Virus record (IMG/VR): IMGVR_UViG_3300009169_002640
Coordinates: 1 to 57,277 of that record
Reading direction: 5' to 3' (one strand)
DNA: 57,277 nucleotides
Source: a virus
Both the position numbers and the translations under genes were made by a program. The notes beneath the pieces are model-generated. The model saw only the letters and a program-made list of their open reading frames with translations, was not told the DNA's origin and ran no database searches. Positions 8,097 through 43,121 of the stretch are shown here, piece after piece. Position 1 is the first letter of the stretch. Each line of letters opens with the position of its first letter.

Positions 8097-10730
8097 ATGT
8101 CGAAAACGAAGAGTAGCAAGAAGCGGGAGCGGTTGGAAGCCCTGCTGGAATCCCAGGAGCGGCGCGGCGACGGACTGGGAAGCGGGGGAGACCGCCAGGA
8201 CGACGGGGGAACGGAAACCTGCATCTGCCCTGAGTGTGGGGCTACCGCCTCTCATGAACGCGGCACTCCCTGCGCCGAAACGAAGTGTCCGCAATGCGGC
8301 ACTGCCATGCGCGGGCAGGAGTCTCCATCGCCGCAGGAAGCGGTGACCGAGAGCGAACTGCGCGAGACGTTCGACCCCGCCCTACCGCGGATCGTCGAGG
8401 AGATAGATTCCCCGGCCGGCGATCACCTGATGGTGATCGAGTGCGTGCTGGGCAACGCAGACAAGCCGACCAAGAACGGACGAGTCTACACGCGCGGCCT
8501 CTTCGAGAAGTTGGTCGCAGAGTGCGCGGCCGGGACCCCGCGCTCGGGAACATGGCTGATGGAAGCCGACCACCCCGAGAGCGGCCATGCGCGCCTCTCC
8601 GCCACGATCAGCACCCCCTGGCGTAACCTGCGGATTGATGATCAGGGGCGACTGCTCGGGGAGACCAGTATTATTGACACCTCCCTGGGCGAGGATGTGC
8701 AGAAGCTGATTCGCAACGGCGTCCCGGTGCAGGTATCGAGCCGGACCTTCGCGAGCCTGACGCAGGAGGTGAGGGACGGTCAAACCGTACAGATCGTAGA
8801 GGAGTCATCTGCCCTGGAGCACTGGGGCGGGTGGGATGGAGTTCTCGGCGCGGCCGCTGACGGCGCCGGGGTGACAAGCTATCGGGAGGCCGACGCGCCT
8901 GCGGCCGTTACGCCTCCAGCACTGGATGTCCCGGGCAATCCACTGGACGAGGTGCTGGAAACTATGGACATGAAGGAATTAGTCGCACAGGTTAGCGAGG
9001 GCGTGAAGGAGGCCCTCAAGCCGCTGATGGAGAGCGCAAAGCCGGGCGAGAGCCCGCCCGCCGAGAAGGCCGAAGAGAAGGCCGAGGCGGCCGCTCCCGA
9101 TCTCACCGCGAAGGTCGAGCAGGCGATGCAGGCCATTGCCGCGCTGACGGAGCGGGTGACGCAAAAGGACCAGGCTGAGGAGAAGGCAGTCCTGGAGGCC
9201 GCTACCAAACAGGCCTTGACGGAAGCGGTCAAGGCCATCATGGAGGGCGAGGAGCTGAAGGCCTGGCCGGAGGCGGCGCGCAAGCTGATGGAGTCCTCGC
9301 TCGCCGAAGTCACCTCTCCCGGGGCGCTGTCCACGACTTTCGATCGTATGCAGCGCAACCTCACTGAGATTGGCCTGGTGGTGCTCAACGGTCACCCCGC
9401 TGGCACTGGTATCGCCGGGGTGCATGTGAGTTCCAGCAAGGAGAAGAGCTTCGCCGACCGCGCCAAGGAGTTCCAGGCCGGAAAGCTTGACCCCAAGTTC
9501 CTACCGGAATCCCCCGCTGAGGTACTGGACCTTCTCTGCGAAGGCATTCCCGACAACGGAATGCGCTCTAACTCCGACCCGGATGACCCGGTGCGCAAGA
9601 TGTTGGGTGGCAATGTCTTCTTCGAGGGCTACCACCCCGGCAACCCGCGCCACGCCTTCCGGGCCGTGCTCCTTAACACCATTAAGGAACATGAGGAGTA
9701 CCTCAGAACCAACCTGCGCGGCGAGCGTGGGCCCTTCATGAAGATGCTGGAGTACACCAGCCTCTCGGGCGTGACGGCGGCGACGCCGTTCATGCTGCCG
9801 ATCATCCGCCAGGTGTGGCCACAGTTGATCGCCACGCAGATCATGTCAGTTCAGCCGATGCCGAGCACGACCGGCAAGGCTCTCTACCTCGACTTCCAAT
9901 ACGATCCGGGCGGCGGCGACCCCTCCGTGCCGGGCGAGTTCGAGAGCGAGTACGGCAACAACATCTCTGAGCAGACGGCCATCCCGGAAGTGAAGATGGT
10001 GATCTCCGAGGCCGATGTTGAGACGGACATTAAGAAGCTCAAGGCCGACTGGTCTACCGAGGCTGCAATGCGGCTCCGGCTTGACTACGGCCTCGACGCC
10101 TCCTCGGAATTCGTCCAGTTCATGTCCGGCGAGATTGCCCGCGAGGTCAACGCGAAGCTGATCAACTCTATGCGCCTCGACACCGACCCGAAGGGCAACA
10201 TCACGGCCGGCAACATCAACTTCGGTTGTACGGCTCCCGCCGCTGGCTATACCCAGCAGGAGTGGGATCGGGAGATTTGGCTCTTCCTGTTGCGCACCAA
10301 CGCGCTGATCACGGCGACGCGGCGACGCCCGGCGAACTGGGCGATCTGCGGCGAGAACGCGCTGATGCGATTGCAGCGCAACGAGACCTTCAAGCTGGTG
10401 CAGCAGGACGGGGCCGGCCAGAATTACGAGACCGGAATCAACCTGGTCGGCGTAATCGAGGCTGCCCCGCGCCTGAGCATCTACTCCTGCGCCTCGGACT
10501 TCTTCCCTGCGGAGAGCGTCCTGCTCGGCCGCAAGGGGCCGGACTGGTACGACTCCGGGGCGGTCTACTGCCCCATCGTGCCGTTCTACGCCAGCCCGGT
10601 ATTCGTGGACCCGGACGACCTGTGCCAGAAGCAGGCCGTCATGAGCTGGTTCGGCTACAAGAAGCTGGTCGGCAACGCCTTCGCGACGCTGACCTGTCAG
10701 GCTGGAACCACTGGAACTCCTTGGATCTAA
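8097..10730 (+). CDS. fusion: zinc ribbon, prohead protease, scaffold and major capsid protein
   Basis: One 877-residue chain carries what are usually three proteins. Residues 42-67 hold paired Cys motifs (CICPEC, CPQC) of zinc ribbons. Residues about 95-265 look like a T4 gp21-type (S77/S80-like) prohead protease: an 'NGRVYTRGLF' box (127-136), MEADHPES with likely catalytic His159, and VSSRTF with likely catalytic Ser near 214-215. Residues 270-420 are Ala/Glu/Lys-rich helices typical of scaffold. From about 480 the sequence resembles T4 gp23-like HK97-fold capsid proteins (ATPFMLPIIRQVWP; KLKADWSTEAA; WAICGENALM; PIVPFYASPVF). An L-x-E site, the type cut by T4 protease, occurs at LLCE|G (residues 479-483) at the scaffold/capsid border, which would release a capsid subunit of about 395 aa. 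The gene is bracketed by hairpins, suggesting its own high expression. No frameshift or stop separates the parts. Confidence 0.88.
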   Translation: MSKTKSSKKRERLEALLESQERRGDGLGSGGDRQDDGGTETCICPECGATASHERGTPCAETKCPQCGTAMRGQESPSPQEAVTESELRETFDPALPRIVEEIDSPAGDHLMVIECVLGNADKPTKNGRVYTRGLFEKLVAECAAGTPRSGTWLMEADHPESGHARLSATISTPWRNLRIDDQGRLLGETSIIDTSLGEDVQKLIRNGVPVQVSSRTFASLTQEVRDGQTVQIVEESSALEHWGGWDGVLGAAADGAGVTSYREADAPAAVTPPALDVPGNPLDEVLETMDMKELVAQVSEGVKEALKPLMESAKPGESPPAEKAEEKAEAAAPDLTAKVEQAMQAIAALTERVTQKDQAEEKAVLEAATKQALTEAVKAIMEGEELKAWPEAARKLMESSLAEVTSPGALSTTFDRMQRNLTEIGLVVLNGHPAGTGIAGVHVSSSKEKSFADRAKEFQAGKLDPKFLPESPAEVLDLLCEGIPDNGMRSNSDPDDPVRKMLGGNVFFEGYHPGNPRHAFRAVLLNTIKEHEEYLRTNLRGERGPFMKMLEYTSLSGVTAATPFMLPIIRQVWPQLIATQIMSVQPMPSTTGKALYLDFQYDPGGGDPSVPGEFESEYGNNISEQTAIPEVKMVISEADVETDIKKLKADWSTEAAMRLRLDYGLDASSEFVQFMSGEIAREVNAKLINSMRLDTDPKGNITAGNINFGCTAPAAGYTQQEWDREIWLFLLRTNALITATRRRPANWAICGENALMRLQRNETFKLVQQDGAGQNYETGINLVGVIEAAPRLSIYSCASDFFPAESVLLGRKGPDWYDSGAVYCPIVPFYASPVFVDPDDLCQKQAVMSWFGYKKLVGNAFATLTCQAGTTGTPWI

Positions 10731-10753: not shown

Positions 10754-10796
10754 GGAGGGGAGGCCTCTTGCGGGGCCTCCCCTCCCTCATTTCCTT
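10754..10796 (+). terminator. terminator after the capsid gene
   Basis: A perfect 12-bp stem, GGAGGGGAGGCC (10754-10765) with GGCCTCCCCTCC (10774-10785), an eight-base loop, then CTCATTTCCTT. It lies 24 bp after the capsid stop codon and before the glycosyltransferase cassette, so capsid and cassette expression are probably uncoupled. Confidence 0.75.
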
Positions 10797-10817: not shown

Positions 10818-12926
10818 ATGGGCGACGAGATGGTGATGGTGGAGAATATCTCAGGCGTAGACCAGCACATCGGGATATGGGTGCTGAAGGCCAGGGCAAC
10901 CCAGCCGATTCCGGTGCAGATGTTGGCGCAGGCAAAGCCTTACGTGCGTATCGTATCTCCGCCCCGAGGCGACCTGCTGGCCATCTACCGCTCATTGTGC
11001 AAGCCTGGGTGCGGACACTCCCTATGCAGCCTGACGCGGGGAGTAACGGCCGCCCTGGAGCACAACGGATTCACAGTGAACCGCGCGGACTGGCGACGCC
11101 CTGACCAGCCGCAGATTGGACGTAGCCACCTCTGCAATTCGGGGACCTTCGAAGGGCCGGCCGGGAAGTTCGCGTGGCCGCACCCCGACGCTGACATCTG
11201 CGCGCGGGCGCAGGCCGACTACTTCCGGCGCAGCTTCGACGGGCATATCTGTTCGAGCGAGGCGATCCGCGCTGCCATGATCGCCTCTGGTATCCCGGAG
11301 AATCGCTGCCATGTGGTGAACGACGCGATTGACGTTGACCTCTTCACCCCGGACGGCCCGGCATTGGAGGGGTGGCCAGGGCGATTCGTGTTCCTGATGC
11401 TGGGGGCGCTGAACCCGCGGAAGGGCTTCGACCTGGCACTGGAGGCCTACGGGAAAGCCTTCACCGCAACCGATCCGGTAGTGCTGGCGCTGAAAGATTA
11501 TGACTATGGGTGGGGTCGTAGGGGATGGTGTCAAGAGCAGGTGGCGGCCTGGCAAGCCCGCCTGGGCGAAGCGGCCCCGATGGTCGAGTACGTTTACACC
11601 ACCTGGGACGAGCAGCAGATTGCGGCCGCCTATCGCCGTGCGGCGCAGCATGGTGCCTACCTCATGCCCTCGCGCTGTGAGGGGTTTGGGCTGACTGGGG
11701 CGGAGGCGATAGCGTGCGGGTGCCGCGTCGGAATGACGGGATGGAGCGGGCAGCTCGATTATGCTACCCCGGAGAACGCCACCCTCTTCGCCTACACCCT
11801 CTCGCGGAATGAGGCGAACCCACAGGCCTATGAGCGCGACGAGCAGCCGAAGTGGGCGGAGGCGAAGGTCGAGGACATCATTGCGTGGATGAGCCGGGTA
11901 GTAGTAGAACGGCCCGATCGGGAGCGACTGAGGCGGAACTCGGAGCAGGTTCGGGCGCAGTTCACCTATGAGCGGATGGCCGAGGAGTTGGCCTCCGCGC
12001 TGGGGCTGGAGAAACCGCGGGGAGGTCGCGCTACCCCCGCAACAGAGGAGGAGAGTGGCGGCGGCAGAGTCTTGCCCGGGACATCCACCGCCGCCGCTCT
12101 TCCCATTGCTGAGCATGAGACCCTGGGAATCGGGATCCCAACGCGAGGCCGGCCGGGCTACGTCGCGGCTCTCCTGGGCGGGCTATTCTGCCAGACGAAG
12201 CGGCCGGACGCGCTCTGCCTGGTGGATGATGACGGCGGCCTGGAGAAGGACTCCGCCATTGTTCACCTGCTTGCGCTCTTTAGGCGGCAGGGAACGCGCT
12301 GCGGGATCGTGCCGGGGTCGCAGAAGGGGGCTAGTCCGAATCACCAGATTGCGATGGAGTGGCTGGAGACTGATCTGGTCTTGCGGCTAGACGACGACCT
12401 CATACCTGCCTCCCCGGACTACGTTGAGAGGCTGTACCGGCTGATCTGCGGCCAGGCTGAAATTGGGGCCGTGGGCGGAACCTACCCGAAGCTGGACGAG
12501 GAGCCGCGCGACTACCGCAAGGCGCTCGGCAAGGCGGGCATGACCAATCGCATTGAGGACATGCGCGCCGGCCGGGTAGACCTTCAATTCCGCAACTGGC
12601 AGGAGGCAGGGGAGCCGGTAGAGGCTGAGCATCTCTACTCCTCTTGGATATATCGGCGCGCCTACCTGGAGGCGGTAGGGGGATTCCCGGACTGCTACTC
12701 GCGCTTCGGGCAGCGTGAGGAGACGGATGCGAGCGTGCGACTATGCCTGCTTGGAGGCTACAAGCTACTGGTGGACCCCGGCGCGAAGGCCTGGCACTTT
12801 CTGGCGCAGGGAGGTCGCCGACCGGAACAGCGCGCGCTGCTGGCGCGGCAGGATGTGCGGACGTTTGAGGGGCGGCTGAAAGAGTGGAGGCATGAACTCC
12901 TGAAAGGAACGGGCAACGGGCAATGA
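10818..12926 (+). CDS. bifunctional glycosyltransferase, GT4-type plus GT2-type
   Basis: A 702-residue protein with three parts. Residues 1-45 form a short beta-rich leader ending in 'VQMLAQAKPYVRIV', resembling small phage structural proteins rather than an enzyme. Residues 60-400 are a GT-B fold GT4-like retaining transferase: nucleotide-sugar site EGFGLTGAE (288-296) with the E-x7-E pair and LMLGALNPRKG (193-203). Residues 432-690 are a GT-A fold GT2-like transferase: GIPTRGRP (439-446), LVDDDG (468-473) and the metal-binding RLDDD (523-527). A Gly/Thr/Ala-rich linker (402-430) separates them. GGAGG lies six bases before the ATG. It would build at least a disaccharide; acceptor and sugars are unknown. 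Its place right after the capsid gene suggests virion glycosylation, which is inference. Confidence 0.85.
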   Translation: MGDEMVMVENISGVDQHIGIWVLKARATQPIPVQMLAQAKPYVRIVSPPRGDLLAIYRSLCKPGCGHSLCSLTRGVTAALEHNGFTVNRADWRRPDQPQIGRSHLCNSGTFEGPAGKFAWPHPDADICARAQADYFRRSFDGHICSSEAIRAAMIASGIPENRCHVVNDAIDVDLFTPDGPALEGWPGRFVFLMLGALNPRKGFDLALEAYGKAFTATDPVVLALKDYDYGWGRRGWCQEQVAAWQARLGEAAPMVEYVYTTWDEQQIAAAYRRAAQHGAYLMPSRCEGFGLTGAEAIACGCRVGMTGWSGQLDYATPENATLFAYTLSRNEANPQAYERDEQPKWAEAKVEDIIAWMSRVVVERPDRERLRRNSEQVRAQFTYERMAEELASALGLEKPRGGRATPATEEESGGGRVLPGTSTAAALPIAEHETLGIGIPTRGRPGYVAALLGGLFCQTKRPDALCLVDDDGGLEKDSAIVHLLALFRRQGTRCGIVPGSQKGASPNHQIAMEWLETDLVLRLDDDLIPASPDYVERLYRLICGQAEIGAVGGTYPKLDEEPRDYRKALGKAGMTNRIEDMRAGRVDLQFRNWQEAGEPVEAEHLYSSWIYRRAYLEAVGGFPDCYSRFGQREETDASVRLCLLGGYKLLVDPGAKAWHFLAQGGRRPEQRALLARQDVRTFEGRLKEWRHELLKGTGNGQ

Positions 12927-13717
12927 GTCACAAGGTATTTAACAACGCAGAAGAGCTCAGGGCGGCTATCTCCAGTGGCAGCATTGATAAGGGAACCTTT
13001 ACGCTCGGCGATGGTTACTGGGACGCCTGGGACGCTGAACTCGACCGGCAGAATGGCAAGGACCGCCTTCCCCTGTTAGTGCAAGCGCAGTATGAACCCA
13101 TCAGGGTGGAGGTGGCAGAGGCCCTAGGTGAGGGGGCGACACAAGAGCAGGTAGAGGTGGAGGCGCGGCGTTGGCAAGAAGTGTGGGGGGCACACCTGCT
13201 CTATTGGTACGCCCGGTGCGTGCACGGACGAGAGTGCTCCGCGTACGGAGAGGCGCACGGAAACGGGGCCGAGGAGGCATATCGCCGCGCCTCGCTTCTT
13301 CGCTACGGCGACGCGGCCCTGCGGGATATTCCTCCCGGCACGTTGGTTTCGTGCCGAAGGCAGGGGCGGCAAAGGACACTTTATCTCGTCGGGCCGACCA
13401 CCGAAGACGGCCTAACCGAACTGACTGTGGCTATCCAGGCGTCATACGCATACTGCGAGCCAGTCGGTTACGTCTACAAGGAGGAAGGCTGGCTCCGCAT
13501 TTTCGAGCCAGCGACGGCGGAGTCACTTACCGAGGCGGTGACGATACATGCCCGCCAAGAAAGAACAGAAAGGGAGCGTAGGCAGCGCCAGATGGACTTA
13601 GAGCGCGAGCGGCGAAGGCAGGCCGATGCTATCGGGCGAGACGCGGCAGCCAACCCAAGGCCCGTCACGCTAGGGCGCCTCATAAGATGGTTCTTCGGGG
13701 GTGGGGGCGCGCGATGA
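12923..13717 (+). CDS. hypothetical protein, 264 aa
   Basis: No recognised domain. The N-terminal 100 residues are acidic with a 'DAWDAELDRQNG' stretch; the middle contains five Cys (about 90-175) and a possible beta barrel; residues 210-245 are a highly charged Arg/Glu/Gln helix, probably coiled coil; the C terminus is basic with a short hydrophobic LIRWFFGGGG. The start overlaps the transferase stop (ATGA) and its own stop overlaps the next start (ATGA), so it is a co-translated member of the cassette. Confidence 0.6.
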   Translation: MSHKVFNNAEELRAAISSGSIDKGTFTLGDGYWDAWDAELDRQNGKDRLPLLVQAQYEPIRVEVAEALGEGATQEQVEVEARRWQEVWGAHLLYWYARCVHGRECSAYGEAHGNGAEEAYRRASLLRYGDAALRDIPPGTLVSCRRQGRQRTLYLVGPTTEDGLTELTVAIQASYAYCEPVGYVYKEEGWLRIFEPATAESLTEAVTIHARQERTERERRQRQMDLERERRRQADAIGRDAAANPRPVTLGRLIRWFFGGGGAR

Positions 13718-14700
13718 TCCTGATGATCGGACTCGACGCCTACCCCTATCAGTGGCGCTCCCTGCTGGAAGAGCGGGATTACCGCGTCGCAGAATTGCAC
13801 TCCCCCCATGCCATGAGCGCGCCGGCCTGGACCTCGATCATGACAGGCCTGAACGCGGAGACGCATGGGGTGCGCGGGATGTATGCCAAGGATTGGACCG
13901 CGGAGGCGGCGGCGTGCCGACCCCGCTACCTCTGGGATCATCTCACGGCCGCGGACCTGGAGAGCGTGGTGGTGAATCTCCCTTTCTCCTACCCGCCCGC
14001 GCTGGTACGGCGCCTCTTGGTATGCGGCTATCCTGCGCTGCCTGAGCATTTCACCTTTCCCCGTCACAGGCAGACAGACTGGGAGTTCGGCGAGCTCGAC
14101 CTGTACAATCGCCGCCGTGGTCTCACCCATCAGGAGGTGCTGGACCTAGATGAGAAGGCGATCCTGGAGGCGCATCGGGAGGCGCGGTGGGCGCTTGCAC
14201 ACCGCTTCCTGCTGGAGATTGGGCGGGGCAAGCCCGACTTCGCGATGTTCTGCCTCACCGATCTGGACCGCCTCTCCCACTATGCCTCCGGGGCGATGCG
14301 TGCGGAAGAAGTGCGGAATGCGGTGCTGACTGACATTCTGGAACTGGTGGATCGGCTGGAAGTACAGATTGCCCCGGAGTGGTTGCTCCTAGTGTCGGAT
14401 CACGGAGTAGACCTGCGCAAGCCGACGCGCGAGGACGGCTGGCATGTCGCGCATGGGCCAGACCTCAAAGAGAGTAAGCGAGGCGTATTCGCGTGGAGAC
14501 GCGCGGACGGGGCGCACCTGGACCGCCAGAACGTAGCACAGAAGCTGCGGCTGGAGGACATCACCCCTACTGTCCTCTCGCTCCTAGACGCAGCTCCGAT
14601 CTCGCGGGTCGAGGGGAGGCCGGCGCTGTTCCCGGTCGCGCCACTAGACGAGCAGGCGCAGATTCAAGAGGCGCTGAGAGGAATGGGCTATGTCGAATAG
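13714..14700 (+). CDS. alkaline-phosphatase-superfamily hydrolase (phosphodiesterase/sulfatase-like)
   Basis: A 328-residue cytosolic member of the alkaline phosphatase superfamily, closest in style to type I phosphodiesterase/nucleotide pyrophosphatase or phosphoglycerol-transferase-like enzymes. Metal ligands and nucleophile appear in order: GLDAY with Asp8; SAPAWTSIMTG with the likely nucleophile Thr40; CLTDLDRLSH in the middle; VSDHGVD; and HVAHGPD. There is no signal peptide or membrane segment. The ATG at 13714 overlaps the upstream stop (ATGA). In this cassette it could remove or transfer a phosphate- or sulfate-linked group during glycan building, or hydrolyse a nucleotide sugar; the substrate is not evident. 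Confidence 0.8.
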   Translation: MILMIGLDAYPYQWRSLLEERDYRVAELHSPHAMSAPAWTSIMTGLNAETHGVRGMYAKDWTAEAAACRPRYLWDHLTAADLESVVVNLPFSYPPALVRRLLVCGYPALPEHFTFPRHRQTDWEFGELDLYNRRRGLTHQEVLDLDEKAILEAHREARWALAHRFLLEIGRGKPDFAMFCLTDLDRLSHYASGAMRAEEVRNAVLTDILELVDRLEVQIAPEWLLLVSDHGVDLRKPTREDGWHVAHGPDLKESKRGVFAWRRADGAHLDRQNVAQKLRLEDITPTVLSLLDAAPISRVEGRPALFPVAPLDEQAQIQEALRGMGYVE

Positions 14701-15577
14701 GCGGTTTCGGCCGGAGCGCAGCATGGGCGACCTGTGGGATGACCTGGCGCAAGAGAACGCGCGGTCAGCGATTCTTTACCACGCGACTCCGGAGTGGTTT
14801 GAGGAGAGCGGTAGGCGCGACGCGGAGGGGCTTTACCGGATCATGGCTCGCCTCCATGTCACCCGCCCCTGCCAGGACGCGGGCAACCGGACCATCCTCG
14901 ACCTCGGCGGCGGGATTGGGCGCATTGCGCTCTATCTCTCTCCGGTCGCCGGTCGTTACTACCTACTCGACGTGAGCCGGGAGATGCTTCGGCAGGCACG
15001 GGCGTGGCTAGACGGGCAGGAGAACGTCTCTCTTGTGCAGGGCGACGGGTTCACGCTCGCGGGCGTCCCCGACGACTCTGTGGATTTCGCTTTCTCCATT
15101 ATGGTCTTCCAGCATATGGACCGCGAGGTGTGTGTGCGCTACCTGATGGACCTGCGGCGGGTATTGGCGCAGCATGGCTACGCTTACCTGGGCGTTCCGA
15201 TGATGGAGTACCCGACGCGCTTTGCGGAGGCCGAGCGGGGGGACTGGCCGGCGAACTTCCGGCGCTGGCACCCAGGCGAGTTCCTGGAGGTATGCGCGCG
15301 CCTGGGCTACGCGATTCTGGAGGCAGACTGCGACCGCGGGCTGTTTCTCTTGCAGCGCGGTGCTGACGCGAATCTGACATGGGAGAACCGGGCAAATGAA
15401 AGGGCGACGACGGCGAGTGACAGGGCGGATCGTGCTGGAGGAGACGACGCAGGGCTGGGTAATGCGGACCCAGCGGCGACGCCTGGGGCTGTGGAGGACG
15501 GCGCAGCGGGCGGAGTATGCGGGGCTGGAGGGCTGCCTGTTGGTGCTGAGTCAGGCCTATGCGACCGCGACGCGTAA
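14690..15577 (+). CDS. class I SAM-dependent methyltransferase
   Basis: Rossmann-fold methyltransferase: motif I LDLGGGIGR near residues 69-77, an acidic strand end YLLDVS near 90, and a post-II 'DFAFSIMVFQHM' segment typical of small-molecule or sugar methyltransferases rather than DNA ones (no PPY box). The enzyme-like sequence ends near residue 228; the last 65 residues are Ala/Gly/Asp-rich low complexity and are read in a different frame over the 86-aa gene at 15396. The ancestral stop may therefore have been lost. It may methylate sugars made by the neighbouring transferases. The start overlaps the phosphatase gene by 11 nt. Confidence 0.8.
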   Translation: MSNRRFRPERSMGDLWDDLAQENARSAILYHATPEWFEESGRRDAEGLYRIMARLHVTRPCQDAGNRTILDLGGGIGRIALYLSPVAGRYYLLDVSREMLRQARAWLDGQENVSLVQGDGFTLAGVPDDSVDFAFSIMVFQHMDREVCVRYLMDLRRVLAQHGYAYLGVPMMEYPTRFAEAERGDWPANFRRWHPGEFLEVCARLGYAILEADCDRGLFLLQRGADANLTWENRANERATTASDRADRAGGDDAGLGNADPAATPGAVEDGAAGGVCGAGGLPVGAESGLCDRDA

Positions 15578-15656
15578 CGTGAAGGGCGTCCTGGTAGGGC
15601 GCAAGCTGCGGCGCCGGACCGCGCAGCAGATTGTCGCGAGGCTGCTGCGGCCATGA
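15396..15656 (+). CDS. basic hypothetical protein, 86 aa
   Basis: Very basic (Arg-rich) protein with 'GRIVLEETTQGWVMRT' strands and a helical second half. It overlaps the preceding methyltransferase tail by 182 nt in another frame. I judge it real because its ATG has a GGGAGA-type site and its stop overlaps the next start as ATGA, as in the rest of the operon. Function unknown; the basic nature hints at nucleic acid or lipid A/phosphate binding. Confidence 0.5.
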   Translation: MKGRRRRVTGRIVLEETTQGWVMRTQRRRLGLWRTAQRAEYAGLEGCLLVLSQAYATATRNVKGVLVGRKLRRRTAQQIVARLLRP

Positions 15657-16369
15657 TGACCTACTGGACTGAGGCAATGACGCAGAACCGGATTGCCCAA
15701 CTGAAGGCCGATGCCGGACAGTTCTTTGGCTTGGCGCGCGAGCAAGTGGAGGCCTGTATCGCGGTGAGTCCGGGGCAGGCGACAATCTGGAACTGGCTGC
15801 ACTGGGCGTGTTGTGAATGGGAGTATGGCTGGCCGCAGAGCATCGCGCAAGCCTGCTCCGACTTCGGGATTCGCGAGGTATTGGACTTCGGTTGCGGGGT
15901 GGGGGAAGTGGGCTTGCACCTCGCGGCGCAACTTGACGTTCCGGTGACGTTTTGTGACCAGCCGGGGCGGTCGCGGGAGTTTGTAGCCTGGCGAATAGGG
16001 CGCACCCTCGACGGGCAGATGCGCGGGCCGATAGACCCCGAGGAGGTATGGCGCGAGGGGCTATCCTGGGATGTGGTCTTGTGCCTGGAGGTGCTGGAGC
16101 ACATCGGTGCCGCGCCGATGGTGCTGAGGAAGCTGCTGGCGAGGACGCGAACTGCGTTCTGCATTTCGGGTGTGAGCGGGCGGCCGCCGACTGATAAGGA
16201 CCCCCTGCACGTCTATCGCGATAGCCTGTTGCCGGTGCTGGAGCGAGAAGGTTGGGCGCTGGTGAGGGGCGGCGGAACGCCGTGGTGGTTCATGCGCAAG
16301 GGGGAGGCGAAGCGGCGGGGCTTGGAGGTGTTGGGGGCAGACGGAAGAGGAAAGGAAACGGGCACGTGA
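15653..16369 (+). CDS. class I SAM-dependent methyltransferase
   Basis: A 238-residue methyltransferase: motif I DFGCGVGE near residues 78-85, and a 'VVLCLEVLEHIGAAPMVL' segment near 143-160, the CLEVLEHI box common in sugar and cofactor methyltransferases. The N-terminal 70 residues are rich in Trp and helical. It overlaps both neighbours by 4 nt (ATGA, GTGA). It is unrelated in detail to the other methyltransferase of the cassette, so two distinct positions or substrates may be methylated. Confidence 0.8.
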   Translation: MMTYWTEAMTQNRIAQLKADAGQFFGLAREQVEACIAVSPGQATIWNWLHWACCEWEYGWPQSIAQACSDFGIREVLDFGCGVGEVGLHLAAQLDVPVTFCDQPGRSREFVAWRIGRTLDGQMRGPIDPEEVWREGLSWDVVLCLEVLEHIGAAPMVLRKLLARTRTAFCISGVSGRPPTDKDPLHVYRDSLLPVLEREGWALVRGGGTPWWFMRKGEAKRRGLEVLGADGRGKETGT

Positions 16370-17370
16370 CCCTCCATCACATAGCTTGGTTCAAACGGAC
16401 GCCTCCCGACAATCATCCGGGCGGCGTTCCTCTTTTCGGGGACTATCTCCGGCGCGTCCTTGGCGCGAGGCTCTGGTCCTGGTCAGACTACCCGAATCGC
16501 GGGGCAGTAGACGAGCCGGAGGCGGCGCGGCTGCTGGGGGAGTATCTGTCGGTGCATCTCCTGTGTCCCGACACGGATGATGATATCGTGATCGCTGATG
16601 GATTTTGGGCGCGGGGGATACTTACCGACCATCACAATTTCGGCAGGATCATCACCGTCGCCCACGGCACATGGCGCGGGATCGCCCGGGCCTTCGGGTC
16701 CGCGCAGGCCGCCCGCCTCGGCGATATTCAGGCAGTCGAGTATGCCCGCCTGCCCGTGGTCGCGGTAAGTGAGTCGGTGGCGCAGGAACTACGCGACCTC
16801 TACGGCGTGGAACCGGCCGCGGTGATCCGCAACGGCGTGGACACGGAGGAGTTCCGCCCGCGGGAGAAGGCGCCGCGGACGCGCCCGGTGATTATCTACC
16901 CGTCCGACGCGAAGACCAAGGGCGGCGATATCGTGGCAGCCCTGCGCGCTCGGCGGCCCGACTGGGAGTTTCGGCGAATCGGCGCGGAGATCGGCGCGGA
17001 GGCGGAGGCGATAGCGCAGGGAGATGTCTACCTGCACCCCTCGCGCTATGAGGGCTGCTCCTATGCGGTCCTCGAAGCCCTCGCCTGTGGGCTGCCGGTG
17101 GTGGGCAGCGGCGTGGGGATGCTGGCGAACGGAGCTCCCGATCAGACGCGCCGGGATGATTCCTGGGGGATAGTCTGTGCGCCAGGAGTGTCGCTGCAAA
17201 CCTGGGAGCTGTCACTGGAAGAGGTATTGGCGAGGCAGAGAGAGGCCTCGCTGAATGCCCACGCCTGGGCCGTCGAGCATGGTTCCCTGACCCGATGGGA
17301 GCGCGAGTGGCGTTCCTTCCTCCAGGGCGTGCCAGTTTACGCTGGAGCGCTACGTCCAAGGAGCGCCTGA
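16366..17370 (+). CDS. GT4-like glycosyltransferase
   Basis: A 334-residue GT-B retaining transferase. Domain signatures: VAHGTWRG and VAVSESVAQEL in the first half, IRNGVDTEEFRP at the interdomain linker, and the sugar-nucleotide site EGCSYAVLEALACG (E-x7-E). The ORF is open further upstream to 16252, but the GTG at 16366 overlaps the previous stop as GTGA and yields a normal 'HHIAWFKRTP' start, so I chose it. It is shorter than free-living GT4 enzymes (usually 350-400 aa), mainly at the N terminus. Confidence 0.83.
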   Translation: MTLHHIAWFKRTPPDNHPGGVPLFGDYLRRVLGARLWSWSDYPNRGAVDEPEAARLLGEYLSVHLLCPDTDDDIVIADGFWARGILTDHHNFGRIITVAHGTWRGIARAFGSAQAARLGDIQAVEYARLPVVAVSESVAQELRDLYGVEPAAVIRNGVDTEEFRPREKAPRTRPVIIYPSDAKTKGGDIVAALRARRPDWEFRRIGAEIGAEAEAIAQGDVYLHPSRYEGCSYAVLEALACGLPVVGSGVGMLANGAPDQTRRDDSWGIVCAPGVSLQTWELSLEEVLARQREASLNAHAWAVEHGSLTRWEREWRSFLQGVPVYAGALRPRSA

Positions 17371-17666
17371 TGGCTACCCGACTGCGTGATATCTTGCCTC
17401 GCCTCTCGCGCCCCGCCGCAAGCCAGGGGCAGGGTACGGCCCTCCCGACCGAGACCCTGCCCCTGGGAACTTGCGGAAGCTGTGAGGCGGTGAACTTCGC
17501 GGCATTCCGGGAGGTGGCAATGGGCGAAGAGCGCGTCTACAAAAGCCCGGATCGGCGCGCGGCAGAGGTTGGCGGCACCCCCCACCCTGTTCGCTTCCGG
17601 TGTCGTAGCTGCGGGAAGATAGTGACGCATGAGCCGGACCGGCTCGGGGAAGTGAGGTCTATATGA
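17370..17666 (+). CDS. zinc-ribbon protein, 98 aa
   Basis: Carries two Cys pairs, CGSC (about residue 35) and CRSC (about 78), separated by 40 residues, which likely bind one zinc. The N terminus is basic with Pro/Gly/Gln. Overlaps the transferase stop (TGATG) and the following connector gene (ATGA). It sits at the border between the enzyme cassette and the connector genes; role unknown. Confidence 0.6.
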   Translation: MATRLRDILPRLSRPAASQGQGTALPTETLPLGTCGSCEAVNFAAFREVAMGEERVYKSPDRRAAEVGGTPHPVRFRCRSCGKIVTHEPDRLGEVRSI

Positions 17667-18376
17667 CTTCGGCGGAACTGATTGTGGAACTGAAAGCGCA
17701 GGGCTTCGGCACCTCTCTCACCGAGACGCAGTGGGGGCAGGTGGTGACGGACGCGCTCGCGATGTTCTCCCGGCAGCGGCCCCAGTATGTGCTCGATACC
17801 TTCACCACCACGGCCGATCTCGCGACCTACGATCTGCCCGCGGGCGGCTATCTCTGCCTAGCCGTATCTCCGCAGCAGACGATAGATGACCTGTGGGCTG
17901 AACTTACTGGCACGTCTACCGACTCGCCCCTGATCGGGGACGGTGACGCGATTGTGGATTTTCACCGCCCCTCTCTCACGGACGCATTTCGCCAGAAGCT
18001 GGAGGCCTGGGCGCGCCAGTTTGGCAGTGACTTCGAGCAGCCGGAGCCGGGCGGGCCAGTGCGGCTGATTCCCGCACCCTCGGAGGCGCAGGAGATGGCC
18101 TGGTACTACACGGCCCTGCATACTACTGTTGACACAGTGCCGGACGGCGCTCTCGACCTGCTGAAGATGGCTGGCCGGGCCTGCGCGATGGGAGCCCTGG
18201 CGCTGGGAAAGACGATCTCGGTATTGGACTCAGGCGGACGACTCACGCTGGGGCCGTACACGAAAGACACTGGGAGTTCAGCCTCGCTGGTCGCCAAACT
18301 CTTCGGGGAGGCGCAAAAGCTGGAGGAGGCCTTCTATCGTGCCGCCTACCTGCCAGCCGGCGCGATCAGGGGCTAG
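17663..18376 (+). CDS. head-tail connector/adaptor-like protein
   Basis: A 237-residue protein in the position of the adaptor (head completion) protein that binds the portal. It has an N-terminal helical 'TQWGQVVTDALAMFSRQRP' segment, then a 'YDLPAGGYLCLAV' beta segment and a helical C-terminal half, a layout I know from gp15/gp6-type adaptors. The next three genes are also connector-like in size and order. No catalytic motif. Assignment is by position and style. Confidence 0.55.
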   Translation: MTSAELIVELKAQGFGTSLTETQWGQVVTDALAMFSRQRPQYVLDTFTTTADLATYDLPAGGYLCLAVSPQQTIDDLWAELTGTSTDSPLIGDGDAIVDFHRPSLTDAFRQKLEAWARQFGSDFEQPEPGGPVRLIPAPSEAQEMAWYYTALHTTVDTVPDGALDLLKMAGRACAMGALALGKTISVLDSGGRLTLGPYTKDTGSSASLVAKLFGEAQKLEEAFYRAAYLPAGAIRG

Positions 18377-18379
18377 GCG

Positions 18380-18760
18380 ATGGCAGACGCGGTTCTCCAA
18401 TCCATACTGACGCATATCGTGAACGTCTACCACCTCGTGCAGAGCGAGGACACGGACGGCCAGGTGCTGGAGGGTTACCCGGATCGCTGGTCGCCCGACA
18501 TCCTGAATCTGCCTTGCGCCATCGTGCAGGACGGGGAGACGCTAGCGAAGTCCGCGGTTGGCGCGATCATCGGCAGTACCATGATCCTCTACTGCGAGGA
18601 CGCGGATCTTCGCGAGCATGATCGGGTGCACTGGAAAGAGCATGTCTACTGCGTGAACGGGACCCCGGCCAAGTATATGAACATCTTCGATGCGGCGAAT
18701 GCGAATACGCCCCACTTGCTGGAAGTAGGGCTGATCGAGGAGAGGGCGGACCCGGCATGA
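18380..18760 (+). CDS. head closure (stopper)-like protein
   Basis: A 126-residue beta-rich protein. Its sequence 'GSTMILYCEDADLREHDRV' resembles head-closure proteins that plug the channel after packaging. It lies between the adaptor-like and HK97 gp10-like genes, exactly where a stopper is expected, and overlaps the next gene by 4 nt. Confidence 0.5.
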   Translation: MADAVLQSILTHIVNVYHLVQSEDTDGQVLEGYPDRWSPDILNLPCAIVQDGETLAKSAVGAIIGSTMILYCEDADLREHDRVHWKEHVYCVNGTPAKYMNIFDAANANTPHLLEVGLIEERADPA

Positions 18761-19308
18761 TAGGCGTCACTGCAACGATCACGAAGCAGGGCCAGATTCG
18801 CGACTGGGCGAGACGGATGCCCACGGAGTTTCAGCGCCGTGCGGTCAAGCTGGTGACGGCCCATGCCCTGGCGATAGAGCGCACCGCGAAGCGGCTTGCT
18901 CCGGTGGACAAGAACGTCCTCAAGGCGAGCATTCACACTGACCTGCGCGTGTCGGGAAGCCATATCTCCGCCGCAGTCGGAACGGACGCGAAGCATGGGG
19001 CCTACCAGGAAATGGGCACCGGACTGTATGGGTACAAGCATCGGGAGTACGTAATTCGGCCGAAGAACAAAAAGGCCTTGGCGTTCGTGGCCCGGGCGGG
19101 AACGCAATTGGCGACGGGACGCGCCCTCTATCGCTCAAAAGCAGGGCGACTGGTGACCTCTCGGAAGCGCGCGGCGCGCACTGTGGTCGCCTACGTCATT
19201 CACCCCGGCGTCCGGCCGCAGCCTTTCCTGGGGCCGGCCTTCGACCACCAGATGCCAACCTTCCGCGCCGATCTACAGAACCTCGCCCGTTTGGGCTTCC
19301 CGAGGTAA
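18757..19308 (+). CDS. HK97 gp10-like tail completion/neck protein
   Basis: A 183-residue protein with family features: an N-terminal helix, 'RTAKRLAPVDKNVLKASI' (the 'APVDTG.L..SI' box), a beta hairpin, 'YQEMGTG' and a C-terminal 'RPQPFLGPAF' motif. Such proteins join the head connector to the tail tube in siphoviruses. It contains an unusual basic insertion (about residues 85-135) between the two halves. Confidence 0.78.
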   Translation: MIGVTATITKQGQIRDWARRMPTEFQRRAVKLVTAHALAIERTAKRLAPVDKNVLKASIHTDLRVSGSHISAAVGTDAKHGAYQEMGTGLYGYKHREYVIRPKNKKALAFVARAGTQLATGRALYRSKAGRLVTSRKRAARTVVAYVIHPGVRPQPFLGPAFDHQMPTFRADLQNLARLGFPR

Positions 19309-19311
19309 GAC

Positions 19312-19764
19312 ATGCCCCCGCTTACGACTGGATTCAACTCCACCACGCAGGCGAATGAGATACTGGAGGCCCTACGCGACGCCTTGGCCGCGGGGACTAC
19401 TGTAACGCGCGGCCCCCTCTGGGCCTTGCCGGAACGCACCTGCCTGGTGCTGACCGGGCCGGGGGTAGAGACCACCCCCTTGGGCCTGAACGTCGAAGAG
19501 GCGCGCTACGAGTGGATGATAGTCTCGGTGCGCGCGGTGGCGGATAACGACCGGCGGGCAGACGAACTCGACACTCTCGCCGACACCATCATGGCCGCGC
19601 TGATGGATCTGATGCGCACCTCTACCAGTTTCTCCTACCAGAGCGGAGACGGGCCGCGGCGTTTGCGCGACATGGAGATGGCGGAACTGGCCGAGCGACA
19701 GCCGCGGCTTGACCCCCTGGGAATCGTGTTCTACACCCGCACGGAGGTGAATCCTCCGTGCTGA
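19312..19764 (+). CDS. tail terminator-like protein
   Basis: A 150-residue protein in the tail terminator slot, directly after the gp10-like gene. It has an alpha-beta pattern with 'YEWMIVSVRAVADNDRRADELD', similar in style to proteins that cap the tail tube hexamer and control its length. The last codons lie in a hairpin that also covers the start of the GT9-like gene. Confidence 0.5.
   Translation: MPPLTTGFNSTTQANEILEALRDALAAGTTVTRGPLWALPERTCLVLTGPGVETTPLGLNVEEARYEWMIVSVRAVADNDRRADELDTLADTIMAALMDLMRTSTSFSYQSGDGPRRLRDMEMAELAERQPRLDPLGIVFYTRTEVNPPC
19741..19759 (+). promoter_or_regulatory. hairpin masking the ribosome site and start of the GT9-like gene
   Basis: A perfect 7-bp stem ACGGAGG / CCTCCGT with loop TGAAT. 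The left arm contains the GGAGG ribosome site, and the right arm runs into the GTG start at 19758. A ribosome finishing the tail terminator gene (stop 19762-19764) would melt it, so translation of the transferase is likely coupled to that gene. Confidence 0.6.
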
Positions 19765-20777
19765 GGCTGCGCACGATACGACGCGTCAAGGGCGCTCGCC
19801 GGGTAGTAACCGAGGCGGGCGCCTTCCATTTCGACGAGTCCCGCGGCGATACCGCCTGCGTGCCAGAGCCGGTTGCCGAAGAACTGGTGGCAGAGGGCCG
19901 CGCCTACCTGCCCTCTCCGCAAGAGCTCTGTGCGGGGAAGTGGATTGTGCGCCGACGCGCAGGCATGGGGGACGTACTCTGCTTGTCTGCTGCCCTGCGG
20001 GAGGTGGTGAAGTTCGGCGGCGCCGTGGAGGTGATCGCCCACGCGAACTACCGCACGATCTTCGATGGATTCCCACAGGGAGCCGGGCAGTTCCAACATC
20101 GCCCGGTGTTGTTTGACGGCTGGCTAGAGCGACACCCAGGAAGGCGGGGCCGACCGGCCGCAGCCTGCTTGGGAGACTATTGGAATCTCGACTTGGAGGA
20201 TATGCGTCCGTACTTCGCGCTCTCCGAGCAAGAGCGATCGCTGGGGCGCTCCTATCTCGCGCAGTTGCGCGGGGGGAGCGAAAGGGTGGTTGCCTTATTC
20301 CAGCGCGCGGGGTGGGAGACGCGCACCTACCGGCACTGGCGGCAGGTAGCGAAGGCGTTGGCGGATTCGGGCTGTACAGTGTTGGGCTTCGACGGCGAGG
20401 TGCTGCCGTGCTGCAAGCAGCCGTTCCCCATGCCACTGCGCGCCCTGGCTGGCGTGATAGCGGCCTGTGATCTGGTGGTGACGGGAGATAGCGGGCCGCT
20501 GCACTTGGCGGCCGCGGTTGGAACCCCTTCGGTTTCGGTGTTCTGCTGCACCGGCGCGGCCGGGTCAGTTGGGCGCGGCTATGACACTGAGTCGCTGGAA
20601 CCGGAGGGGATGGAGTGCTGGCCGTGTTGGGCGGCCAGTTGTCGTGTCGGCGAGGTGGATGTCCCGGGCAGCTGTGTTGAGGCGGTGTCGCCTGAATCGG
20701 TAACACAAGCAGCCCTGGGGCGTCTTAAGGCGCTCTCTGGGCACAAGGAGAGTGCAGATGCAGGGCTTCTACGGTAG
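19758..20777 (+). CDS. GT9 (heptosyltransferase-type) glycosyltransferase
   Basis: Residues 1-55 are an extra N-terminal module ('DTACVPEPVAEELVAEGRAYL') resembling small phage structural domains. From about residue 60 the GT9 fold begins: 'VRRRAGMGDVLCLSAALRE' (nucleotide-sugar transferase N-terminal motif GMGD) and the diagnostic acceptor/donor motif 'VVTGDSGPLHLAAAVGTPSV' near 243-262. GT9 enzymes add ADP-heptose or related sugars to lipopolysaccharide. Here the gene lies between the tail terminator and tail tube genes, starts at GTG, and is 339 aa. Seven Cys in the C-terminal third are unusual. Acceptor unknown; virion glycosylation or host surface change are both possible. Confidence 0.82.
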   Translation: MLRLRTIRRVKGARRVVTEAGAFHFDESRGDTACVPEPVAEELVAEGRAYLPSPQELCAGKWIVRRRAGMGDVLCLSAALREVVKFGGAVEVIAHANYRTIFDGFPQGAGQFQHRPVLFDGWLERHPGRRGRPAAACLGDYWNLDLEDMRPYFALSEQERSLGRSYLAQLRGGSERVVALFQRAGWETRTYRHWRQVAKALADSGCTVLGFDGEVLPCCKQPFPMPLRALAGVIAACDLVVTGDSGPLHLAAAVGTPSVSVFCCTGAAGSVGRGYDTESLEPEGMECWPCWAASCRVGEVDVPGSCVEAVSPESVTQAALGRLKALSGHKESADAGLLR

Positions 20778-21618
20778 GATTTGGTACGGCGTGCAGGGAG
20801 CGAAGGGGACGGCGGCTACGTCCTTCGCCCCCATCGGGATTATCGGCCGGGCAAATCGGCGAATCCCCGCGGGACTTGAGAAGCTGTTTGGCGTCGGCTC
20901 CTGGAATGCGATGGAGCTTTCTGAGGGCATGACCCTCGGCGAAGTAGGAATCTCCATCGCGGCCCTGGAGGACCCGCACTTCTGCCAGTACGCGCGGCGT
21001 AGCGACGTGACCGGCGAGCTCACCTGGCTGACCATCAAGATGGGCTACGTGAAGGGCGCGGAGGTCTACACCTCCGTCATTCAGGACTGCAAGATGGACT
21101 CGCTGGGCCTGCGGCTAGAGGCGGGCGGGCGGATCTCGGTTGACCTCTCTCTGATTGGCGGCAAGGTCACCAACACCGCGGCCGATCCCGGCGACATGTC
21201 GAACCTCGACGCGCGGGCTTACCGCTCGTTTGAGGCCGTATGGGACGAGGTGCTGGACCTACGCGCGTTCTCCCTGGACGTGCGCAACAATATCAGCCCG
21301 ATCCCTGTCATTGCCGGGTCCGGCACGACCCGCGACCCGGATCGAATCTGGGATTACCTGGACGAGGGCCGCAATGACGTGGGAGGTTCGCTCACCTATC
21401 GCGCCGGCGATGTGACGCGCGACCTTCAGGACTGCCTGCTGACCGGGGCGGACCACGACCTGGTATTCACCTCGTGCGGGGATATCTCCCCCGCGCAGAG
21501 CATGACCATCTCGCTCACCGGCCTGAAACTGGAGAGCGAGGACTTCCAGCTGCAGGCCGATGCGGACGTGCTGTTCGAGTGTCCGTATCTGGCGACCGAC
21601 TGGGAAATTACCGGCTAG
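20758..21618 (+). CDS. major tail tube protein
   Basis: A 286-residue beta-rich protein located between tail terminator and tail chaperone genes, the normal place for the tube protein. Features: an N-terminal 'GRIWYGVQGAKGTAAT' strand and loop, repeated 'VTGELTWLTIKMGYVKG' type strands, and many short Gly/Asp turns. GTG 20752 is also in frame, but the ATG at 20758 is seven bases after AAGGAG, the better spacing. It overlaps the GT9-like gene by 20 nt. Confidence 0.72.
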   Translation: MQGFYGRIWYGVQGAKGTAATSFAPIGIIGRANRRIPAGLEKLFGVGSWNAMELSEGMTLGEVGISIAALEDPHFCQYARRSDVTGELTWLTIKMGYVKGAEVYTSVIQDCKMDSLGLRLEAGGRISVDLSLIGGKVTNTAADPGDMSNLDARAYRSFEAVWDEVLDLRAFSLDVRNNISPIPVIAGSGTTRDPDRIWDYLDEGRNDVGGSLTYRAGDVTRDLQDCLLTGADHDLVFTSCGDISPAQSMTISLTGLKLESEDFQLQADADVLFECPYLATDWEITG

Positions 21619-40818: not shown

Positions 40819-41006
40819 TGCGCCTCCCTCCCCGCCTCATACGCGGCGCTGAGGTTCGCGTCTGCATCGGCGGCCCATTTCTGGATCGCCCCTTCGATCA
40901 CCGCCCGCGCGTCGAGCAGGTCCGCCATCCCCGCGCTATAGGGCTGGCCCTCGCGGTCGAGCGCGGTCACAGCCTCAGTGCCAAGGTTCACTTGTATGAT
41001 GGTCAT
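40815..41006 (-). CDS. hypothetical protein, 63 aa
   Basis: Small protein with 'MTIIQVNLGTEAVTALDREGQP' beta-type start and an Ala-rich helical end 'NLSAAYEAGREAQ'. The end resembles that of the 72-aa protein at 40135, suggesting a shared short motif. Overlaps neighbours by ATGA. Unknown. Confidence 0.5.
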   Translation of the reverse strand: MTIIQVNLGTEAVTALDREGQPYSAGMADLLDARAVIEGAIQKWAADADANLSAAYEAGREAQ

Positions 41007-41872
41007 CCGTTCACCTCCAGCAGCCTTCCTTGCGCCGGGCTATCCGTGCGCTCTACTCTGCCCGCGTCGAATTCCTCCAGGGGAATCTTCCCCCCGTGGT
41101 AGATGTGTCGCGCCCAGTAGCGGCAGAAGCGGCGAAGAGTTCCGTCCGTCCATCCCGGCCCCACATAGGAGTTCTTTATCAGTGAGTCAAGGGGCTGATA
41201 CCGCATAGGATTGGGTAACACGCCTGCATCATGGAGAGTCTGACACCGATAGCCTGCGTCCTCCGGGGAATCATTGAAGCCCACCAGAACGTAGCAGCGC
41301 AGGTCGCGAAATCCGTGTTTCTTTGCCACCTCTATTGCCTTCATCACCGCCGACTCGTAGCGCATATCATCCCAGGCGAAGCGCGGGTGCATGGGTAATT
41401 CGGAGAGACGCGCCGCTTTCGCGTCCGTGAAGAGGCTAGCCTGTAACCCCTGGTTGAAATCTACAAACGGCAATGCCTTGAGGCGGTCTACCGCGCGGTT
41501 GAAATGCGCCGCGCTGGTTGCGAGGAAATTGTCATCACAGACGCAAGGGGCGACATCCCACTCCGCTAGCTCTACAAGGGGACGATGCTCGTTCACACAG
41601 AAGCGGCAGGCATTCGGGCAGCCCTGCGAGGTTCGCGTGGCAAGCGGGTTGTGCAGGCGCAGGGGGACAATCGGGGCGGCATCCTGCCCAATCTCACAGA
41701 CGCTCGCGAGGTAGTCAGGGAGGAGTTCCACCGCGGGACCGCCAGCGACCACGCGCCCCTTCGTGGCATCAGCGATTCGCCGCGCCTCCGGTAGCAGCCA
41801 CGTGAAGGGGACGCTCAGGTAGGTCGTTCCTCCCATGCGCCACTGCTTTATGCCCTTGTGCCACGCGTACAT
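41003..41872 (-). CDS. radical SAM enzyme
   Basis: A 289-residue radical SAM protein: the iron-sulfur ligands are the CxxxCxxC box GCPNACRFC (Cys85, Cys89, Cys92). The part before it, 'GRVVAGGPAVELLPDYL', resembles the tail of a B12-binding-like domain, but the domain is too short to bind cobalamin normally. Other strands of the barrel follow ('DFNQGLQASL', 'LRCYVLVGFND'). Its stop/start overlaps with the adjacent DNA methyltransferase suggest a modification role, which is inference. Substrate unknown. Confidence 0.82.
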   Translation of the reverse strand: MYAWHKGIKQWRMGGTTYLSVPFTWLLPEARRIADATKGRVVAGGPAVELLPDYLASVCEIGQDAAPIVPLRLHNPLATRTSQGCPNACRFCVNEHRPLVELAEWDVAPCVCDDNFLATSAAHFNRAVDRLKALPFVDFNQGLQASLFTDAKAARLSELPMHPRFAWDDMRYESAVMKAIEVAKKHGFRDLRCYVLVGFNDSPEDAGYRCQTLHDAGVLPNPMRYQPLDSLIKNSYVGPGWTDGTLRRFCRYWARHIYHGGKIPLEEFDAGRVERTDSPAQGRLLEVNG

Positions 41873-42666
41873 TAGATGCTCTCCAGCAGCCTTCCTTGCG
41901 CCCGCGCCCGCCGCAGGCGTTCCTCGATCAACTTCGCGTAGACCGGCGAGAGTTCGCAGCCAGCAAACATCCTGCCCAGGTTATGCGCGGCTACTCCTGT
42001 GCTGCCCGATCCTGCGAAAGGGTCCAATACCATATCCCCAGGCCAGGAGTAGAGCTTAATCAACCTGCCCGCGAGCTCTACGGGGAACGCCGCGGGGTGA
42101 GTTCTATTGGTCTCCGGGTTGACGCGCCACAGGTTAGAGGTTCCGAAGGTAAACTCGGAAGAGCAAAGATCGGATTTCGCCCCTCGCGGGTTTGGCAGAT
42201 CGAAGCGCCCTTTGCTGAACACCAGGATAGATTCTTGGTGGTCTCGCAGGCATGGATTGGAGGGGCTGCACCACGTTCCCCAGGCGGTGGAGTTCTTCTG
42301 TGCCGCCCCCTTATCCCAGATGATTCCGCCGCGCAGGAGTAGCCCCGCCTGCACACCAAGCAGCGTGTAGAACGCCTCTAGGGGATATGCGGGGGAACGC
42401 CCGATGTAGCTTGCGACGTTGATCGCTAACCTCCCGCCTTCACAAAGCACGCGAGGAATCTCTGCCATCCACAAGCGCGCCCAGTCCTCATACTCCGGCC
42501 AGGGGCGCTGATCGCAGATGCCTTCCCCGTAATCAATCCCCGCGTTGTAGGGCGGAGAGGTAACGCATATCTGGGCGTATCCCCCTGGAAGGGATCGCAG
42601 CCACGGGATGCAGTCCCCACAGTGGAGGCCGAGGAAGTCGCGGTCGGTGAGGGCGGGGGCGGTCAC
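41872..42666 (-). CDS. DNA methyltransferase, SPPY (N4-cytosine/N6-adenine) type
   Basis: A 264-residue beta-class amino-methyltransferase: catalytic TSPPY (residues 36-40) precedes the SAM-binding 'DMVLDPFAGSGSTGVAA' near 205. The SPPY form favours N4-cytosine over N6-adenine targets, but this is not certain. No restriction enzyme is next to it. Together with the C5 enzyme at 1812 it would give two different marks on phage DNA, likely protecting it from host restriction. Confidence 0.88.
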   Translation of the reverse strand: MTAPALTDRDFLGLHCGDCIPWLRSLPGGYAQICVTSPPYNAGIDYGEGICDQRPWPEYEDWARLWMAEIPRVLCEGGRLAINVASYIGRSPAYPLEAFYTLLGVQAGLLLRGGIIWDKGAAQKNSTAWGTWCSPSNPCLRDHQESILVFSKGRFDLPNPRGAKSDLCSSEFTFGTSNLWRVNPETNRTHPAAFPVELAGRLIKLYSWPGDMVLDPFAGSGSTGVAAHNLGRMFAGCELSPVYAKLIEERLRRARAQGRLLESI

Positions 42667-43121
42667 TCAGCCTCCTCCAGTGCTTTCTCCAGCCACGCCT
42701 TCACCACGTCTCCGTGGCAGGGCTTCGGCGCACACCAGCAGGCCAACACGAGGTCGCCGGAGCGGGCTAGAGAGAGAAGGCGGGTGAGTTCGGCGCAAAT
42801 GCTTGGAGCGCCATCTTTGGCACACTCCACCAGCATAGACTGGTACATTTGGATAGACTGTTTCCGGGTTAGGCCGCCGCCGTGCGTGAAGCAGTGCCAA
42901 GTGATTCCGCGGCCCGAATCTGGATGGTTCGGGTTATCAATAACGACCTGTATTCTCCACCTAATCCCGCCGATCACGAACAGATTCGCCAGCGGGCTCT
43001 CGGCCAGCCCGTACCGCTTGTTGGCCCGCCCGATGTAGACGACGCGCTCCGGTAGCACGCAGGGGGTAACGCCAGAACCATCGCGGATGTAGTCCCGGAT
43101 GTGGGCGACGGTGATCGTCAT
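42663..43121 (-). CDS. DUF4326 domain protein
   Basis: A 152-residue protein with the two DUF4326 hallmarks: 'VYIGRANKRYGLAESPLAN' (about residues 28-46) and the C-terminal 'CWCAPKPCHGDVVKAWLE' (about 127-144). The Cys/His pattern is strictly placed, so a metal or nucleotide role is likely, but no activity is known to me. Common in phages near DNA modification genes. Confidence 0.85.
   Translation of the reverse strand: MTITVAHIRDYIRDGSGVTPCVLPERVVYIGRANKRYGLAESPLANLFVIGGIRWRIQVVIDNPNHPDSGRGITWHCFTHGGGLTRKQSIQMYQSMLVECAKDGAPSICAELTRLLSLARSGDLVLACWCAPKPCHGDVVKAWLEKALEEAE

Follow-up and report, generated by a model that had tools for sequence, protein, structure and literature searches.

Phage-encoded glycosyltransferases (GTs) that act on the virion are known from experiments in mycobacteriophages: Che8 gp110, Corndog gp38 and the GT of Myrna are reported to be needed for capsid glycosylation, with glycans on both the capsid and the tail tube (Freeman et al. 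2023, as cited in PMC12363180 and PMC12619734). In the chlorovirus PBCV-1, GT domains and O-methyltransferases of A064R and A061L assemble the glycan of the major capsid protein and cap it, as has been proven biochemically (PMC9614988). Here we analyze a cassette of GT, phosphatase-type and methyltransferase genes inside the virion-structure operon of an uncultured tailed phage, IMGVR_UViG_3300009169_002640, whose entire IMG/VR record of 57,277 bases is referred to below as the window. We suggest, with a probability of about 0.62, that the cassette encodes a pathway by which the phage glycosylates its own virion proteins late in infection.

The window resembles the mycobacteriophages in encoding its own GTs, but whereas one or a few GTs are implicated there, three proteins of the window together hold at least four GT domains, and two methyltransferases and an alkaline phosphatase (AP)-superfamily enzyme are encoded alongside them. 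With PBCV-1 it shares virus-encoded GT domains plus O-methyltransferases, an analogy of logic for which no relationship is claimed; PBCV-1 is a eukaryotic giant virus, its product is an N-glycan, and its GTs and methyltransferase are joined in one protein. Closer at the level of the terminase is Streptomyces phage TurkishDelight (NC_073473; 53% identical), in which the two-domain GT gp20 lies between the major capsid and major tail proteins, although this is a single gene of GT4-GT4 rather than GT4-GT2 composition, next to another capsid protein and of predicted function. Actinoplanes phage phiAsp2 (NC_005885; terminase 51% identical) carries three translationally coupled genes, pas33-pas35, for a GT, a GT/O-methyltransferase-like protein and a further GT; these lie downstream of the tail genes, are also of predicted function and are accompanied by neither an AP enzyme nor a GT9. 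The initial annotation had regarded a phage glycan pathway in this arrangement as new. Published virion glycosylation and the placement of the TurkishDelight GT take away part of that novelty and leave the rest of the arrangement. Since Che8, Corndog and Myrna already provide examples of phage enzymes that glycosylate the virion, the cassette would be a larger form of such a system and not a new kind.

All of the enzymes named initially exist, with intact catalytic motifs (open reading frame (ORF) calls, Pfam), and they lie on the same strand as the capsid fusion and, as had been claimed, the connectors and the tail tube. The enzymes and the two candidate acceptors are as follows:

8097..10730, + strand: capsid fusion of an S77 prohead-protease domain and a Gp23-type major capsid protein, candidate acceptor (Pfam Gp23 3e-37, Peptidase_S77 1e-6)
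10818..12926, + strand: GT4-GT2 fusion (Pfam GT4-conflict 3e-13, Glycos_transf_1 2e-7, GT2 9e-6)
13714..14700, + strand: AP-superfamily enzyme of the type I phosphodiesterase/nucleotide pyrophosphatase type (PF01663 4e-11, 43.5 bits against a cut-off of 23)
14690..15577, + strand: class I S-adenosylmethionine (SAM) methyltransferase 1 (PF13649 1e-15)
15653..16369, + strand: class I SAM methyltransferase 2, in a variable slot (PF13489 3e-9)
16366..17370, + strand: GT4 glycosyltransferase (PF13692 7e-10; EX7E at 229)
19758..20777, + strand: GT9-family glycosyltransferase (PF01075 2e-15, 57 bits against a cut-off of 22)
20752..21618, + strand: tail tube, candidate acceptor (Phage_tube_2 1e-8; 59% identical in relatives)

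Curated Pfam matches together with catalytic motifs of the EX7E and DXD types place these proteins in the GT4 and GT2 families, the fusion having EX7E at residue 288 (GT4) and DDD near 525 (GT2). The motifs GMGDVL and DSGPLHLA of the GT9 enzyme line up with WaaC/WaaF and establish membership of that family, and SAM motif I is intact in both methyltransferases. The AP enzyme scores above the PF01663 cut-off, and its residues D8, T40, D183/D185, H189, D229, H230 and H247, which we take to include the metal ligands and the nucleophile, are invariant in relatives. The window therefore carries phage-encoded, apparently functional GTs linked to virion genes.

The cassette enzymes are mostly translationally coupled. 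From GT4-GT2 to the GT4 at 16366-17370 the successive junctions are -4, -4, -11, +75 and -4 nt, the +75 junction between the two methyltransferases being bridged by an ORF at 15396-15656; from the GT4 to the tail tube there is an overlap with a small CxxC ORF, followed by -4, +3, -4, +3, -7 and -26. The 4-nt junctions described initially thus hold for most of the series but not for those of -11, +75, +3, -7 and -26. We infer late co-expression from this gene order. At least the part of the window from 15436 to 21418 is not an assembly chimera, since contig L017 matches it at 99.98% identity.

The strongest argument for the glycosylation of virion proteins comes from related contigs. An alignment of 13 terminases recovered 80 loci and reached these relatives; scans of viral contigs with single proteins (GT4-GT2, AP, capsid, portal) found no relative, the same scan with GT9 returned a near-identical contig as its sole match, and a TBLASTN search of 50,697 phage records left GT9, AP and GT4 unmatched and gave one partial match for GT4-GT2. 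Five metagenomic IMG/VR contigs, representing two lineages, share the block order of the window (G013, of 54 kb, G015, G016, G046 and L146), so that the same gene order proposed as a check was found. This order is capsid fusion, GT4-GT2, AP enzyme, methyltransferase 1, variable slot, GT4, small CxxC protein and connectors; G013, G015 and G016 run on through the tail terminator, GT9, tail tube and tape measure. G046 stops inside the connectors, so GT9 and the tail tube are visible in three contigs, and wherever a contig reaches this far GT9 directly precedes the tail tube. L146, recovered by alignment of GT4-GT2, belongs to the G046 lineage (99.5%), and identity among G013, G015 and G016 is 98-100%, which gives two lineages besides the window. 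These are about 82% identical to each other in DNA and about 50% identical to the window in amino acids; the recurrence of one order at 45-57% identity argues that it is not due to chance.

The enzymes also diverge as the virion proteins do. Between G013 and the window, the five shared enzymes are 46-56% identical, while portal, MuF, capsid, connectors and tube are at about 48-59% and the terminase at 69%; homologues of GT4-GT2 (52%), GT4 (52-53%) and GT9 (55%) occupy corresponding places in the relatives. The ratios of nonsynonymous to synonymous substitution (dN/dS) between G013 and G046 are 0.083 for GT4-GT2, 0.125 for AP, 0.117 for methyltransferase 1 and 0.136 for GT4, against 0.095 for the capsid, 0.129 for the portal and 0.091 for the neck protein at 17663-18376. 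The enzymes therefore descend with the virion genes and are constrained like them, and their gene content, catalytic motifs, order, conservation and purifying selection are all directly supported. The variable slot is the exception to this conservation: the relatives contain nothing that matches methyltransferase 2. A Methyltransf_24 gene takes its place there, and in G046 the next gene encodes a protein that matches nucleotide-sugar dehydrogenases (9e-21, under the cut-off and shorter than full length). As judged from these sequences, the slot exchanges tailoring enzymes between lineages, which is again consistent with a glycan pathway serving the virion.

Further support comes from phages of the same terminase clade, in which GT and methyltransferase genes follow unrelated capsid genes. 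Besides TurkishDelight, G033 has a phrog_267-type capsid gene, one small gene and then a GT4 gene, and G030 has a phrog_212-type capsid gene, a fibre-like gene and a 1192-residue GT2/GT/methyltransferase fusion, after which come a methyltransferase, a GT2 and two further methyltransferase genes (this cassette, at L144 5512-12254, is larger than that of the window and unrelated to it). In G003, a GT4 gene and an epimerase-like gene lie downstream of a MuF-like gene. That GT genes recur beside unrelated capsid genes argues for a functional linkage to the virion module. With gene order, co-divergence and this recurrence, the initial proposal that the phage encodes a glycan pathway linked to its virion operon is well supported, and a location of the glycan on capsid or tail is what we infer. 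G003 also encodes (L018 16501-18465) a GT2-GT2 protein that ends in a helix-hairpin-helix domain.

In the proposed pathway, the enzymes would act jointly: GT4, GT2 and GT9, as soluble enzymes using host nucleotide sugars, would assemble a short oligosaccharide, with the major capsid protein, the tail tube or both as acceptor, and the methyltransferases would add O-methyl caps to its sugars. The AP-superfamily enzyme would hydrolyze a nucleotide-sugar product or else add or remove a phosphate group. The absence of any transmembrane-like (strongly hydrophobic) stretch in the cassette proteins fits this pathway, as does the mycobacteriophage precedent. The cassette is also not of the GtrABC seroconversion type, as its proteins match no membrane flippase or membrane glucosyltransferase family.

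The GT9 enzyme was initially linked to ADP-heptose and lipopolysaccharide (LPS), a remark that proved weak. Against the LPS-heptosyltransferase models TIGR02193, TIGR02195 and TIGR02201 it scores 22-30 bits, far under equivalog cut-offs of 134.6-185.3, so we reject that identity and neither ADP-heptose nor LPS should be assumed. Moreover, it has a conserved N-terminal extension of about 60 residues and a CX2CX4CX10C motif close to the C-terminus, both invariant across relatives; E. coli WaaC and WaaF have neither. An N-terminal extra domain and four cysteines are also found in TibC, a GT-B protein heptosyltransferase whose extra domain is needed for activity and whose four-cysteine iron finger follows the catalytic C-lobe (PMC4358343). 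In TibC, however, the spacing is CX2CX15CX11C and the domain is a barrel of about 97 residues; TibC was not among the PDB sequence matches of the GT9 enzyme, to which WaaF/WaaC-type entries match weakly. The resemblance is thus a lead from sequence and not membership. GT4-GT2 likewise has a conserved N-terminal extension, of about 50 residues and unknown fold. The idea that these extensions are known phage neck domains found no support: searched as such, that of GT4-GT2 gave zero matches, and that of GT9 matches PHROGs of unknown function weakly (best 0.0017). AlphaFold2 models of GT4-GT2 (mean pLDDT 37) and GT9 (32) were too poor for use. By analogy with FlmG, a modular bacterial GT acting on flagellins whose N-terminal domain binds the acceptor protein (PMC7591256), one might guess that both extensions bind an acceptor. 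It is conceivable, though doubtful, that decoration is divided, with GT4-GT2, the AP enzyme and the methyltransferases acting on the upstream capsid, GT9 docking through its N-terminal domain on the downstream tail tube, and exchange in the slot varying the virion glycan between lineages.

Several points weigh against virion glycosylation. The position of the genes indicates, at most, that they are regulated together, and it is hard to fit the AP enzyme into the pathway. Only 11 of 50 terminase-clade records, the window included, have a GT2 or GT4 match (E below 0.001; one weak), and most therefore have none, although many of these records are fragments. The relatives outside the clade of the window share the placement of the genes, not orthologous enzymes. 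Finally, the tyrosine-recombinase gene of the relatives makes lysogenic conversion possible.

This recombinase is also consistent with the main rival, in which the enzymes modify a polysaccharide or glycolipid of the host surface, for superinfection exclusion, receptor masking or lysogenic conversion, and merely ride in the late operon. GT4, GT2 and GT9 enzymes mostly serve surface polysaccharides, and the nearest curated models include LPS and exopolysaccharide enzymes, albeit far under cut-off. We nevertheless consider this explanation unlikely, if still to be taken seriously: flippase, ligase and polymerase are all missing from the cassette, which encodes no other membrane protein either. 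Nor would a surface moron be expected to show a GT9 gene so tightly coupled, in both lineages, to the tail terminator on one side and the tail tube on the other, or to turn up repeatedly next to capsid genes that are unrelated. It is improbable that the acceptor is instead a tail fibre or another minor distal tail protein, with a glycan that tunes adsorption and does not coat capsid or tube; a GT2-like gene of P19250A near the tape-measure gene, not far from host-specificity genes, and the fibre-like protein between capsid and GT genes in G030 would fit this, but the enzymes in the clade of the window flank capsid and tube genes, not those of the distal tail. Modification of phage DNA bases, as in hypermodified-DNA phages, is very improbable: DNA-glycosylating phage GTs are known (cited in PMC12619734) and the window has DNA-methyltransferase genes, but no base-hypermodification enzyme (thymidylate-synthase-like, hydroxymethylase or TET-like) was found among the proteins scanned, and the cassette lies among the virion genes and apart from those for replication.

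The initial list of cassette features, sound for the enzymes it named, was incomplete; it lacked two ORFs, a hairpin after the capsid gene and the out-of-frame end of methyltransferase 1. The remaining features of the region are:

10754..10785, + strand: 14-bp GC-rich hairpin separating the capsid gene from the cassette (RNA fold)
12923..13717, + strand: unknown 264-residue ORF within the cassette (ORF call)
15396..15656, + strand: 86-residue ORF with a 4-nt overlap with methyltransferase 2 (codon-position GC)
17370..17666, + strand: small CxxC...CxxC (zinc-ribbon-like) protein between cassette and connectors (sequence; relatives 48-49% identical)
17663..19764, + strand: neck region with an unknown protein, head-tail adaptor, Neck1-type protein and tail terminator (PHROGs)

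The hairpin, at which a terminator scan made no call, could possibly set capsid against downstream expression; two relatives have a hairpin of different sequence at the matching position. The ORF at 12923-13717 had no Pfam, PHROG or NCBIfam match and no tblastn match in the relatives; G013, which has no counterpart of this ORF, shows a 4-nt overlap between GT4-GT2 and the AP gene, and in G016 a DNA-methyltransferase-like gene sits at this point. The conserved part of methyltransferase 1 stops near 15340-15380, and its last 60 or so codons have no counterpart in the relatives, whose protein has 233 residues. From about 15380 the codon-position GC switches to the frame of the ORF at 15396-15656, inside the methyltransferase 1 ORF, so that the end of the latter is doubtful and looks out of frame. 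The switch at 15380-15656 may come from a small gene that overlaps methyltransferase 1 or from a frameshift, and the codon-position GC makes a real small gene likely. The connector ORFs were confirmed at 18380-18760, 18757-19308 and 19312-19764.

Elsewhere in the window, the + strand carries the terminases, portal, MuF-type head protein, capsid fusion, connectors, tail tube and tape measure, and the - strand SbcCD-like, RNA-ligase, replication-initiation and DNA-methyltransferase-like genes. The capsid gene joins a T4-like S77 prohead protease domain to a Gp23-type major capsid protein in a single ORF of 877 residues, a fusion kept in the relatives. A radical SAM domain protein (41003-41872, - strand) adjoins a DNA-methyltransferase-like gene (41872-42666) and a DUF4326 gene (42663-43121). 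G013 (41393-41923 and 42315-43295, reverse-complement coordinates) and G016 encode an N-terminal sequence like that of type IV pilins (FTLIEILVV...FPVF...CGSNLKRI), as well as a tyrosine recombinase; pilin-like proteins with such an N-terminus are common in Armatimonadota and Planctomycetota, a possible clue to the host. The terminase relatives come from records assigned to Chloroflexota, Anaerolineales, Calditrichota, Acidimicrobiia and Streptomyces, of which many are contigs of metagenome-assembled genomes, where the binning of viruses is unreliable.

If the cassette does glycosylate the virion, a multi-step glycan pathway would reside inside a bacteriophage structural operon, kept over about 50% protein divergence with its tailoring enzymes swapped in one slot. 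Phage virion glycosylation would then reach beyond the mycobacteriophage examples to uncultured phages, and the cassette would be a source of candidate virion-specific protein glycosyltransferases and sugar methyltransferases. The question of why phages coat their particles, whether for adsorption, stability or evasion of binding molecules, would become testable.

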